A DNA stretch of 52,586 nucleotides from Bacillota bacterium (GCA_021811325.1 JAJZPE010000006.1:1-52586), one strand, 5' to 3'. Shown: positions 42,483-46,665, counted from the first letter of the stretch. Numbers and translations are program-made. Notes: generated from the letters alone by a model not told the origin.

Positions 42483-43481
42483 ATGGACCGGCCGGGCCGC
42501 CATAATCGACCGGTACCGATCGGGACGGCGACCGCGCCGAACCCGGTTTTCGCCGCCCCCATGGCCGGCGTGACCGACCTTCCTTTCCGGGTCCTCGCCC
42601 GCGAGCAGGGGTGCGGTCTCGTCTACACCGAGATGCTCAGCGACAAGGCCCTCATCTATAGCCACCGCCGGACCGAGCGGATGCTCACCATCGCCCCCGA
42701 GGAGCACCCCATCGCCGTCCAGCTCCTCGGGTCCGAGCCCGGGGCCATGGCCGAGGCGGCCAGACTCGTCGCCGAGGCCGGGGCGGACATCGTCGACATC
42801 AATCTGGGTTGCCCCGCGCCGAAGGTCGTCAGGAACGGGGAAGGGTCGGCCCTCGCCCGCGACCCCGAAAAAGCCGCGGCCCTAGTCTCGGCGGTCGTCC
42901 GCGCCGTCGACCGCCCGGTTACGGCCAAAATCCGCAAGGGCTGGAGCCCCGAGGAGGTCAACGCGGTGGAGCTTGCCCGCCGTCTGGAGGGCGCCGGGGT
43001 CGCCGCCATCGCCGTCCACGGCCGGGTCAGGACGCAGTTCTACTCCGGCCAGGCCGACTGGGGCGTCATCGGCGAGGTCAAGGCGGCCGTCCGGACCCCG
43101 GTCATCGGCAACGGCGACGTCGTCGGGGGACCGTCGGCCGAGGCGATGATGGACCTGACGGGCTGCGACGCGGTGATGATCGGCCGCGCCGCCCTGGGCA
43201 ACCCGTGGGTCTTCGCCCAGGTCCGCGAGTTCCTGGCGACGGGCCGCGAAGCGCCCGGCCCCTCCCCCGAGGAGCGCGTGGCCATGGCCGTCCGGCACCT
43301 GCAGGCCATCGTCGCCCACAAAGGGCCGGTCATCGGGCTCCTGGAGATGAGGAAGCACGCCGCGTGGTACATCCATGGCCTGCGGGGGGCGGCCAGAGTG
43401 CGGTCCCGCCTGATGGAGGCGACCTCACCGGAGGCCATGGAGGACATCCTCCGTTCTTTTCTGGTCGGCCTCGAAGGCTGA
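42483..43481 (+). CDS. dusB: tRNA-dihydrouridine synthase
   Basis: A 332-residue FMN enzyme reducing uridines in the tRNA D-loop. APMAGVTDLPFR, TEMLSDKAL, the catalytic cysteine in NLGCPAPKVVRNGEGSAL, KIRKGW, AVHGRVRTQFYSG, GNGDV and IGRAALGNPWVF are visible. It begins one base after the deacetylase stop. It precedes lysS in many Bacillota, as here after intervening genes. Confidence 0.93.
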   Translation: MDRPGRHNRPVPIGTATAPNPVFAAPMAGVTDLPFRVLAREQGCGLVYTEMLSDKALIYSHRRTERMLTIAPEEHPIAVQLLGSEPGAMAEAARLVAEAGADIVDINLGCPAPKVVRNGEGSALARDPEKAAALVSAVVRAVDRPVTAKIRKGWSPEEVNAVELARRLEGAGVAAIAVHGRVRTQFYSGQADWGVIGEVKAAVRTPVIGNGDVVGGPSAEAMMDLTGCDAVMIGRAALGNPWVFAQVREFLATGREAPGPSPEERVAMAVRHLQAIVAHKGPVIGLLEMRKHAAWYIHGLRGAARVRSRLMEATSPEAMEDILRSFLVGLEG

Positions 43482-43510: not shown

Positions 43511-43537
43511 AAACCCCCGCCGGCGGGGTTTTTATTT
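43511..43537 (+). terminator. Terminator after dusB
   Basis: AAACCCCCGC and CGGCGGGGTTTTT form a GC-rich stem with a T run. Confidence 0.85.
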
Positions 43538-43541
43538 ATCC

Positions 43542-43569
43542 TTGCTTCTTTAGTACCAGGTGATATAAT
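43542..43569 (+). promoter_or_regulatory. Promoter of the HTH-quinate dehydrogenase module
   Basis: TTGCTT (43542-43547), a 16-base spacer and an extended -10 TGATATAAT (43561-43569). About 45 bases before the coding region. Confidence 0.75.
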
Positions 43570-43615
43570 ATACTTGGGCACAAGTCTGTGCTCACCGTGC
43601 CCTAACCAGTCGGAG

Positions 43616-44167
43616 GTGGATCAGCTGGACTTCATCCGAATCGGGGACAAACTGATCGACCGGGCCAAGATCGACCGGGCCATCGACCAGATTCTCACCC
43701 TGCGGTCGGGAGGCCTCTCCCAGCAGGAGGTGGCCGACAAGATCGGCGTCGACCGGACCCTGGTGTCCCGGCTCGAGGGCGTCGGCGAAGTCCGCAAGGG
43801 CGAATCCATCGCCGTCATCGGCTTTCCCGTGGAGAACAAGGACGAGGCCGTCAGGGTGGCCGCCGAGGAGGCGGTGGACTTCGCCTACGTCCTGACCGAC
43901 CAGGAGCGATGGGACCTCCTCAACCGCAGCGGAGCCGAGCTGTTCAACGAGTTGATGCGGCTCATGGCCCGGATCCGCGAGTTCCGGGTGGTCGTCATCC
44001 TCGGGCTGAACCAACCGGCCCGCTTCTTCGCCGCCCTTCTCGACCGGGAGGTCACCGTCCTCCACCTCAAACAGGTGCCCGGCAGCAACGGCCGGTTCGA
44101 CCCGGAGGAACTCCGCCGGCTGATCCGGTCGGTCAAGACCAGCCGCCCCGCGCGGGTGCGGTCCTGA
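43616..44167 (+). CDS. Helix-turn-helix regulator of a conserved unknown module
   Basis: About 180 residues. An N-terminal region (DFIRIGDKLIDRAKIDRAIDQILTLRSGG) leads into a helix-turn-helix (LSQQEVADKIGVDRTLVSRLEGVGEVRKG). A C-terminal alpha/beta domain follows with IAVIGFPVENKDE, AVDFAYVLTDQERWDLL and FRVVVILGLNQPARFFAALL, possibly a ligand or nucleotide-binding domain. The start is unclear: GTG 43616 overlaps the GGAGG, while CTG 43625 has ideal spacing (8 bases) to it, an unusual start codon. The gene directly precedes the quinate-dehydrogenase-like gene. Confidence 0.72.
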   Translation: MDQLDFIRIGDKLIDRAKIDRAIDQILTLRSGGLSQQEVADKIGVDRTLVSRLEGVGEVRKGESIAVIGFPVENKDEAVRVAAEEAVDFAYVLTDQERWDLLNRSGAELFNELMRLMARIREFRVVVILGLNQPARFFAALLDREVTVLHLKQVPGSNGRFDPEELRRLIRSVKTSRPARVRS

Positions 44168-44238
44168 ACGGGCCGGCGATTTGGGCCCCTTTTCACGGCA
44201 AGATGGGATGCGGGTGCGAGTAGAATGAGAGGAGACGA

Positions 44239-45156
44239 GTGAAGGTGAAACGGGTTGTCAGCGTCAGCCTCGGGGCCTCCAACCGCGACTTCAAGTACAC
44301 CCTCAACGTCCTCGGCGAGGAAGTCAGCGTCGAGCGCATGGGGACGGACGGCGACCTGAAGAAAGCCATTCTGCTGGTCAAAGAGCTCGACGGCAAGGTC
44401 GATGCCTTCGGCATGGGCGGCATCGACGTCTACGTCCGGTCACGGACCGCCAAGTACGTCATCAAGTCGGCGGCCCCGCTGCTGAAGGCGGCCAAGAAGA
44501 CGCCGATGGTCGACGGCAGCGGGCTCAAGCACATGATCGAGGCGCGGGCCGTCCACTACGTCGACCAGAACATCACCCCCCTCAAGGGCAAGAAGGCCCT
44601 GATGGTCTCGGCCGTGGACCGCATCGGGATGGCCGAGGCCATGACCGAGGTGGGGATGGAGACCCTCTTCGGGGACCTCATCTTCATCCTCGGGGTGCCC
44701 ATCGCTGTCCGGACCCTCGGGCAACTCGAGACGTTGGCCAGGCTCCTCGCCCCGATCATCGTCCAGCTCCCCTTCAGCTGGCTCTACCCGACCGGCGAGA
44801 AGCAGGAGGGGAAGAAGAAGCCCGCCAATGCCAAGTTCGCCCGCTACTACCACTGGGCCGACGTCATCGGCGGCGATTGGCACTACATCGCCAAGTACAT
44901 GCCCGAGCGGCTGGACGGCAAGATCATCCTGACCAACACGGTGACCCCGAAGAACATCGAGGACCTGCGGGCCCGCGGGGCCAAGACGTTGGTCACGGCC
45001 ACGCCCGACCTGGGCGGGCGCTCGCCTGGGACCAACGCCATCGAGGGCGTCCTCATCGCCGTCGCCGGCAAGCCGCCGAGGGAGGTCACCGAAGCGGACT
45101 ATGGGCGGCTCATCGACCAGATCGGCTTCAAGCCCCGGGTCGAGCACTTGAACTGA
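44239..45156 (+). CDS. Quinate/shikimate dehydrogenase-like protein of unknown function
   Basis: A 305-residue protein similar to proteins named quinate 5-dehydrogenase in Bacillota. The start VKRVVSVSLGASNRDFK is followed by RMGTDGDLKKAILLVKELDGKVDAFGMGGID and KTPMVDGSGLKHMIE. In the middle GKKALMVSAVDRIGMAEAMTEVG would be the nucleotide-binding part, then DWHYIAKYMPERLDGKIILTN and PDLGGRSPGTNAIEGVLIAV. It lacks the shikimate-binding SKSxSP and the GxGGxxxA of AroE, so the name is doubtful. It is the second gene of the module; a GGAGACGA site precedes the GTG. Confidence 0.68.
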   Translation: MKVKRVVSVSLGASNRDFKYTLNVLGEEVSVERMGTDGDLKKAILLVKELDGKVDAFGMGGIDVYVRSRTAKYVIKSAAPLLKAAKKTPMVDGSGLKHMIEARAVHYVDQNITPLKGKKALMVSAVDRIGMAEAMTEVGMETLFGDLIFILGVPIAVRTLGQLETLARLLAPIIVQLPFSWLYPTGEKQEGKKKPANAKFARYYHWADVIGGDWHYIAKYMPERLDGKIILTNTVTPKNIEDLRARGAKTLVTATPDLGGRSPGTNAIEGVLIAVAGKPPREVTEADYGRLIDQIGFKPRVEHLN

Positions 45157-45199
45157 GCCCGGCCGGCTGCCGCCGCGCCGGGCGCGGGGGCGGTGACCG

Positions 45200-46396
45200 A
45201 TGGGCGACCTTGCTTTCCTGTACCTCACCCACCCGCGGCGGGGGGCGTCGTTGCGCCGCTTCGCCAGCTGGACCGCACTGCTGCCGGAGCCGGCGCTGGA
45301 GGGCCTCTTGAGGCTGCTTCCGCCGCTCCGGCTTGGTCTTGTCCCGGCGATCGCCGGAGCCGGCCCAGGGCTGGTCGTCGGCCTGCCCCTGACCGATGAC
45401 GACCTCACCCGGCGGTCTGAGACCGCCCGGCGCAAGGTCGACGCCGCGCTTGAGGGCGCCCGCCGGGCGGGCGTGCGGACGGTGGCCCTGGGCGGCCGCC
45501 TGACCGAGCCCTGGTGGGCGGCCCTGGTCGCCAGACAGGGCCGGGTCCGCGTGGTCACCGGCGAGGCCCTCGCCATCGTCGCCACCGTGGCGGGCCTGGC
45601 GGCCTTGGCGGGCCCGGGCTTGGCCGGGTGGCGGGTGGGGGTGGCCGTTGGCTCCGGCCGGCGCCTGGCCGCCGAGACCCTGGCCATCTGGCTGGCGCGG
45701 TCGGTCGGCCGGGTGACTCTCTTCGGAGCGCGGCGGGACCACCTGGCCGGCATTGCCGCCAGGGTGCTCGGTGACAGCGGCCTGGTGGTGGAGATAGTGG
45801 GCCGCACGGACGACCGGCCCGGCCACCCAGGCGTCCGGCCGGACCCCGCCGCCGTTCAGTTTGACCGCCTGGACGCCCTCTGTCTTCTCGGGGCCCCGCC
45901 GCCGGGCATCGCCAGGGCCGTCGAGGAGGAGACGGTCGTCGTCGACCTCGCCCCCGCCCCGACCGCGGCCGCGGAACTGACGGCGGCCGGCCGCGGGCTT
46001 CGCCTGGCCCGGGGGGCGCTGATCGGGGTCCCCTGGCCGGGACCCTGCCCAGCCCGATTGGCTCGCCTTTTCCCCACGGGAGCGGGCCCCGCCGGCCGGG
46101 CGGCGCGCTTCCTGCCTCCGGCGGTGGCCGAGGCCATCCTGGAGGCGGGTGAAGACCTGGGGAGTGGGCTGGCCCAGCCGTCCCTCCGCCGGGTCGAGCG
46201 GTTGGCGGCCTTGGCCCGGCGGCATCCGCTGGGCCTGGACGGCCTGCGGTGGCTGGACACGGGGCGCCCGGAGGCCCCGGCGGGCGACCGAAAGTTGCCC
46301 AGGCGGCAGGAAAGCGGGGGACGGCAGCGAAATCAGACCAACGGGAGCGATGACGACGGCGGCCGCGGGCCGCGGGCCGGGGTGCGCCTTCCTTGA
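45200..46396 (+). CDS. COG5322-like predicted dehydrogenase (acyl-ACP reductase-like)
   Basis: A 398-residue protein with the layout of predicted amino-acid dehydrogenases and acyl-ACP reductase-like proteins: FLYLTHPRRG, LLPEPALEGLLRLLPPLRLG near the start, GVRTVALGGRLTEP, TGEALAIVATVAGL, then a Rossmann nucleotide site VGVAVGSGRRLAAETLAIWL and ARSVGRVTLFGARRDHL. The last ~60 residues are a low-complexity basic and Gly/Asp-rich tail with no visible function. The ATG has only a weak G-rich site. Third member of the module; the substrate is unknown. Confidence 0.65.
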   Translation: MGDLAFLYLTHPRRGASLRRFASWTALLPEPALEGLLRLLPPLRLGLVPAIAGAGPGLVVGLPLTDDDLTRRSETARRKVDAALEGARRAGVRTVALGGRLTEPWWAALVARQGRVRVVTGEALAIVATVAGLAALAGPGLAGWRVGVAVGSGRRLAAETLAIWLARSVGRVTLFGARRDHLAGIAARVLGDSGLVVEIVGRTDDRPGHPGVRPDPAAVQFDRLDALCLLGAPPPGIARAVEEETVVVDLAPAPTAAAELTAAGRGLRLARGALIGVPWPGPCPARLARLFPTGAGPAGRAARFLPPAVAEAILEAGEDLGSGLAQPSLRRVERLAALARRHPLGLDGLRWLDTGRPEAPAGDRKLPRRQESGGRQRNQTNGSDDDGGRGPRAGVRLP

Positions 46397-46421
46397 CAGC
46401 CCAGCCGGTTAGGCTTATAAT
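46393..46421 (+). promoter_or_regulatory. Perfect consensus sigma-A promoter of greA-lysS
   Basis: TTGACA (46393-46398), 17 bases and TATAAT (46416-46421), a complete match to both boxes with optimal spacing. It overlaps the stop of the previous gene and opens a leader of about 235 bases. Confidence 0.92.
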
Positions 46422-46427
46422 GTAAAA

Positions 46428-46665
46428 TGACTTGGGGCAAGCACTGGCGGATGCAGTGCTTGCCTGATTCTACACAGGGGCTGGCTCAGAGGGCGTTCGG
46501 TGTCAAGGAAAGTCTCTTGACACTTATTTTCGTGCCGACCCAGCCTGAAAGGGCCTCTCGAGGGGCTCTTCCCCAGTCAGACCAGAGAATAAAAGCGATG
46601 TCCAAGGCATATATTGGCTTTGGACGCGGGGGATCGCCCCCGCTCTTAAAAGGAGCGAAAGCCAG
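46428..46665 (+). ncRNA. Structured 5' leader of greA
   Basis: The leader holds three clear hairpins: GCAAGCACTG/CAGTGCTTGC (46437-46463, 7-base loop), GTGTCAAG/CTTGACAC (46500-46523) followed by a T-rich TTATTTTC, and GCGGGGG/CCCCCGC (46626-46643) shortly before the AAAAGGAG ribosome site (46648-46655). The second could act as an attenuator. No T-box signature (AGGGTGGNACCGCG) or known lysine or SAM riboswitch was recognised. The presence of a leader is well supported; its function is not. Confidence 0.55.

Follow-up and report, generated by a model that had tools for sequence, protein, structure and literature searches.

A conserved gene trio of Bacillota, its predicted operator and a degenerate reductase gene as the candidate core of a small acyl-thioester regulon

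The window, by which we mean the whole 52,586-nucleotide stretch of Bacillota bacterium DNA that was analysed (GCA_021811325.1 JAJZPE010000006.1:1-52586), contains three plus-strand open reading frames with dusB on one side and greA and lysS on the other. They encode an HTH regulator, a 'quinate dehydrogenase-like' protein (hereafter QDH) and a third protein that homology places in a family of acyl-thioester reductases. The locus is organised as follows, with positions counted from the first letter of the window.

42483-43481, plus strand: dusB (TIGR00737 match), upstream neighbour of the module
43511-43531, plus strand: intrinsic terminator 3' of dusB, found by terminator scan, setting dusB apart from the module
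43542-43569, plus strand: module promoter, with a weak -35 box TTGCTT (43542-43547) and a perfect extended -10 box TGATATAAT (43561-43569)
43578-43591, no strand given: operator palindrome GCACA-AGTC-TGTGC (GCACAAGTCTGTGC) directly 3' of the -10 box, putative site of the HTH protein
43625-44167, plus strand: HTH regulator gene with a likely CTG start, GGAGG at 43612-43616
44239-45156, plus strand: QDH gene, 305 aa
45200-46396, plus strand: third gene, apparently a degenerate acyl-thioester reductase of the AAR/PigE/TamH family, without GxxGxxG and Cys
46393-46421, plus strand: consensus greA-lysS promoter (TTGACA-N17-TATAAT), overlapping the end of the third gene and forming the module's downstream border
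46423-46665: greA leader, from the promoter to the greA start codon
46666 onward: greA-lysS, downstream of the module

The terminator after dusB, together with separate promoters for the module and for greA, indicates that the trio probably forms its own transcription unit. The greA-lysS promoter is kept in L002, the closest relative fetched. The module promoter had been proposed in a preliminary description of this DNA; its extended -10 box is perfect and the element aligns with the L002 sequence, but its -35 box is weak and the whole lies below the threshold of the consensus scan, which did not list it. The same description began the module at 43616, where a GTG stands. The L002 sequence has this codon in another frame and shows a TAG stop, in frame, immediately before the aligned CTG; on that evidence we moved the HTH start to CTG 43625, the likely start codon, which aligns with ATG, TTG or GTG in other relatives. 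Between the -35 and -10 boxes, TTAGTACCAGGTGATAT (43550-43566) resembles the FapR consensus at 13 of 16 positions, with 0.01 such matches expected in the window; it was discarded as a functional site because it does not recur in relatives. As a separate observation, the greA leader has a predicted folding energy of -105.5 kcal/mol, much lower than shuffled sequence gives (z -4.7), and is well conserved in L002 together with its hairpins, which makes it a candidate regulatory RNA; a search of Rfam with the leader gave no match.

The trio is real and conserved. Relatives of QDH were found in 216 stretches of a species-genome collection, and in 81 loci its companions were HTH (69), greA (64), lysS (63) and dusB (55). 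The usual order, coaX-dusB-HTH-QDH-reductase-greA-lysS, recurs in most loci and again in 60 further loci picked across families, in agreement with the placing of a three-gene module between dusB and greA-lysS and with the similar order that the preliminary description mentioned for other Bacillota. Among 398 genomes of the phylum, QDH is present in 290 (73%), including 16 of 16 in the window's class. The HTH gene occurs in 234, of which 232 also carry QDH (odds ratio 212), more often than chance would give; the reductase family, counted at E 1e-25, occurs in 241, 235 of them with QDH. No QDH copy was found on plasmids, and literature searches for 'quinate 5-dehydrogenase' turned up nothing on the trio.

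In most relatives the third protein is, judging by homology and motifs, an acyl-thioester reductase. A profile of these relatives matched PigE (E 7e-49) and AAR, the cyanobacterial reductase of long-chain acyl-ACP (TIGR04058; PDB 6jzq/6jzy; E 5e-38 over 315 positions), in the PDB, as the earlier assignment to the acyl-ACP-reductase type would have it, and the intact members carry GxxGxxG and a Cys at the place of AAR Cys294. The likeness to AAR is incomplete at the locus: no aldehyde-deformylating oxygenase was seen beside the genes, and neither QDH nor the third protein of the window has the Cys or the glycine motif. To the same reductase family belong PigE, TamH and KecF, from prodigiosin, tambjamine and koreenceine synthesis; their domains have been shown or proposed to convert an acyl thioester to an aldehyde, and the fused aminotransferase to convert the aldehyde to an amine (PMC8341465, PMC9594044, PMC6498172). 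Aminotransferase-reductase fusions in the TamH order lie right after QDH in some relatives (L004, L007, L016, L057, L127, L130, L141), and the papers found under COG5322 all concern aminotransferase fusions. Unlike those systems, the genes described here form a phylum-wide operon with HTH and QDH, usually beside dusB-greA-lysS and with no pigment cluster, and the window's copy is unfused and apparently dead.

The window's third protein belongs to this family by sequence homology. It is 59% identical to its L002 counterpart and 19-27% identical to intact relatives, and gives no Pfam hit on its own; 32 of 36 third-gene relatives match PF01488 'Shikimate/quinate 5-dehydrogenase'. It reads VGSGRRLA where relatives have GATGSIG and PPAVAEAI where the catalytic Cys motif ACMAET aligns, and no family-like Cys motif was found in it: both motifs are lost. 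Degenerate third genes are nevertheless retained at the locus as open reading frames. For the pair formed by the window and L002, the Ka/Ks of the third gene is 0.35 (0.27-0.47), close to the 0.36 of QDH, a constraint indicating that the degenerate gene is not simply a relic. On the best tree of 129 QDH sequences, the third gene changes between intact and degenerate or absent 15 times, 7 of them forced by well-supported branches. It is not recognisable beside QDH in 16 loci, and in some genomes QDH and the reductase are separated onto different loci.

No Pfam or NCBIfam model covers QDH, a highly conserved family that we regard as new. The window protein matched no Pfam, NCBIfam or aroE model, a profile search of the PDB found no sequence match, and none of 52 members matched PF01488 at E 1. 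The preliminary description was right that QDH lacks AroE features and is not an ordinary shikimate enzyme, but the PF01488 match belongs to the third-gene relatives, where it covers the Rossmann part of the intact proteins. A confident AlphaFold2 model of QDH (pLDDT 90, pTM 0.88) shows an AAR-like fold. Its best structural match was AAR itself (Z 14.0 over 242 residues, rmsd 4.1), followed by the AAR-related carmabin TAD domain (Z 13.7), with glutamate dehydrogenases clearly lower (10.7); the AroE-type structure 2hk8 shares a two-domain dehydrogenase-like fold (Z 9.6), but QDH lacks the AroE glycine motif as well as the Pfam match and lies structurally nearer AAR. Neither GxxGxxG nor the catalytic Cys is conserved in the 52 aligned sequences, which share 46 invariant columns; the alignment suggests that an invariant D127-R128 occupies the place of the glycine motif and an invariant N266 lies near that of the Cys. 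At the sequence level, hhalign scored QDH and the reductase family no better than shuffled alignments, so support for a kinship with AAR comes from the predicted fold. In our reading QDH has the AAR fold but another active site, and is neither a thioester reductase nor AroE.

Taken together, the AAR-like fold of QDH and the retention of degenerate third genes with open frames and a Ka/Ks of 0.35 between the window and L002 could mean that the third protein is kept as a pseudo-enzyme which holds or regulates QDH, this pairing being the main function of the operon. We consider this a serious but unlikely explanation, given the loci in which QDH stands without any recognisable third gene, and given that sequence comparison of the two families scored no higher than shuffled controls. 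The reading we prefer, in which the operon is the core of a small acyl-thioester-consuming regulon, starts from the regulator and its putative operator.

The HTH protein reached E 1e-4 and 22.7 bits against PF01381 (cut-off 23). Its model has helices at residues 16-31, 36-43 and 47-57, with the HTH motif near residues 25-52 followed by a four-stranded alpha/beta domain. The fold of this C-terminal domain is generic (best structural match LarB, Z 8.6, not diagnostic) and was set aside as a clue to function. In related genomes the interval between dusB and HTH often encodes a protein of 320 residues that has no Pfam match (L027:4401-5369 and about 20 loci).

Analysis of the region between promoter and HTH start revealed a palindrome, RCACA-N3/4-TGTGY, in 69 of 103 distinct loci, against a mean of 0.17 and a maximum of 2 in shuffles that keep dinucleotides. 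The palindrome is new here. Of about 445 control regions from those loci, taken before dusB, greA, lysS, the third gene and coaX, none contained it. The HTH protein belongs to the module, as the preliminary description proposed. The location of the window's copy just after the -10 box is the position expected of a repressor controlling its own operon, and we infer that the HTH protein binds the predicted operator and autoregulates. In 2.57 Mb of fetched sequence, where the background is 1 site per 516 kb, we counted 101 distinct sites, comprising 85 before HTH, 8 before the gene of a synthase described below and 8 others. These last include the HTH site again in L001, sites directly before the start of TA-TR fusion genes in L051 and L057, and a site in L272/L303 that precedes an ADH gene with the synthase next. 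The additional palindromes of other genomes fall mostly within genes or ahead of unrelated ones, so a wider regulon was rejected and the regulon appears small. In L251 (2930-2943), a strict copy lies on a fragment with a second QDH copy and has no HTH or synthase gene behind it.

The window genome contains exactly two exact copies of the operator, the one at 43578-43591 and a second on contig C5 (6752-6765), 30 bases before an open reading frame for a 477-residue alpha-oxoamine synthase. Its catalytic domain places this protein in the BioF/KBL/SPT family, with TIGR01825 at E 3e-123, PDB 7poa at E 3e-93 and PDB 3a2b at E 9e-92, and with KBL and 8-amino-7-oxononanoate synthase among its best matches. 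It resembles the known alpha-oxoamine synthases (8-amino-7-oxononanoate synthase/KBL of the 7poa type, serine palmitoyltransferase, KBL) in this catalytic part, but scores below every listed NCBIfam cut-off, falls into one clade of its own (support 99) and carries the module's operator. Orthologues number 11 in the nearest 41 genomes; 8 have the operator close upstream, and in a ninth it stands before an alcohol-dehydrogenase gene directly ahead of the synthase. In L304 and L305 no strict operator precedes the synthase gene or operon, the L305 locus having a looser box, and none was found at 18 loci of synthase paralogues. Outside the closest relatives, the genes around the synthase mostly change from one genome to the next, so the box goes with the gene and not with its surroundings.

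The distribution of the two enzymes over these 41 genomes is mutually exclusive. HTH accompanies the synthase in all 11 genomes, and none of them carries a reductase that is intact: the slot is empty or occupied by a gene that is degenerate or cannot be recognised, and the window shows this state too. The 30 genomes without the synthase all carry a reductase or reductase-aminotransferase that is intact and has both Cys and GxxGxxG; in two of them, G403 and G414, the copy in the usual slot is dead and an intact reductase lies elsewhere. Were the genomes independent, chance would produce such a split once in 3 billion cases (41 choose 11), a figure that their kinship weakens. The synthase is scattered on the QDH tree, with 6 changes against a shuffled mean of 7, but only 1 change is forced by well-supported branches, so there may have been a single switch. 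Our inference is that the two enzymes are alternatives acting on acyl thioesters under a single regulator, the synthase having replaced the reductase in the window genome.

A different account of the synthase would make it a threonine-breakdown enzyme, part of a Tdh-Kbl-like pair, and the HTH protein an amino-acid regulator, with lipids not involved. The zinc alcohol dehydrogenase adjoining the synthase in L303 and L306 fits this account, as does the presence of KBL and 8-amino-7-oxononanoate synthase among the best matches. It is nonetheless improbable, because other KBL/BioF-type homologues in these genomes lack the operator and because a perfect exchange with an acyl-thioester reductase would be left unexplained.

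We favour instead, with a probability of about 0.62 for the reading as a whole, an autoregulated operon that is the conserved core of a small acyl-thioester-consuming regulon whose reductase has been replaced here. The HTH protein would bind the palindrome just 3' of its own -10 box and repress the operon, and a ligand on its C-terminal alpha/beta domain would relieve the repression. In most relatives an intact NAD(P)H-dependent reductase would convert acyl-ACP or acyl-CoA to an aldehyde, and in some lineages its fusion to an aminotransferase would carry the aldehyde on to an amine. In the lineage of the window, this task would have moved to the alpha-oxoamine synthase on contig C5, which under the same operator would form an amino-ketone from acyl-CoA and an amino acid, the local reductase having lost its catalytic residues. 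QDH, with the AAR fold and an invariant polar pocket of its own, would work independently of reductase catalysis; in that pathway it is probably a partner of dehydrogenase-like or ligand-binding type. Its place there is uncertain, because QDH can lie apart and lack an operator while HTH and the operator remain with the reductase: QDH has moved away from this set in L192 and L198, and among the loci examined the operator was never found before relocated QDH genes. Since the box follows the HTH gene, the TA-TR fusions and the synthase and never the relocated QDH, the regulon points to acyl-thioester/amine chemistry, which the preliminary description did not foresee; by family, the confidently identified enzyme targets act on acyl thioesters and use PLP.

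That description had QDH and the third protein acting successively on one metabolite sensed by the HTH protein. The shared operon and the co-occurrence of the trio over the phylum agree with such a scheme, but it is very unlikely, and for the window it fails: the third protein lacks both GxxGxxG and the Cys, the third gene has been lost or has decayed many times and QDH persists, and the two genes also separate onto different loci. A tie to sporulation, the least probable of the explanations considered, was rejected, as the association of QDH with SpoIVA is above chance but loose (271 genomes with both, 65 with SpoIVA only, 43 with neither and 19, several of them 94-99% complete, with QDH only) and may reflect shared ancestry.

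Under the regulon reading, the operator yields a first function of the module that can be tested: it ties HTH to acyl-thioester and PLP chemistry, would explain the decay of the reductase slot and predicts which genomes carry which enzyme. If this reading is right, an acyl product bearing an amine or ketone, so far unrecognised, would be made by many anaerobic and thermophilic Bacillota under a regulator of their own, and 'quinate dehydrogenase' would be a misleading name for one of the central proteins. A more far-reaching proposal, possible although we lean against it, is that the new HTH protein and operator mark an undescribed phylum-wide pathway that turns acyl thioesters into a long-chain amine or amino-ketone, in which reductase, fusion and synthase are interchangeable ways of entry and QDH represents a new AAR-fold enzyme family at the centre.

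Further copies of QDH occur in other settings. Second, diverged copies lie near DUF3786 (L242, L243, L244, L253, L258-L261, L263, L264) in what appears to be a separate conserved cluster; most of these loci also encode a ThiL-like kinase and a carboxyltransferase of the methylmalonyl-CoA-decarboxylase type. Another arrangement comprises a patatin-like phospholipase, SfsA, QDH, a UROD/MetE-like protein and a PHP phosphoesterase (L228, L230, L234, L241, L255, L257, L265). The UROD/MetE-like neighbour is named on our own reading and has no Pfam hit; it was tested as a possible degenerate reductase and rejected. In L231, L237, L239, L245, L246 and L262, a relocated QDH gene is followed by one for an SCP2-like lipid-carrier protein, and in 5 of these 6 loci an amino-acid permease gene comes next.
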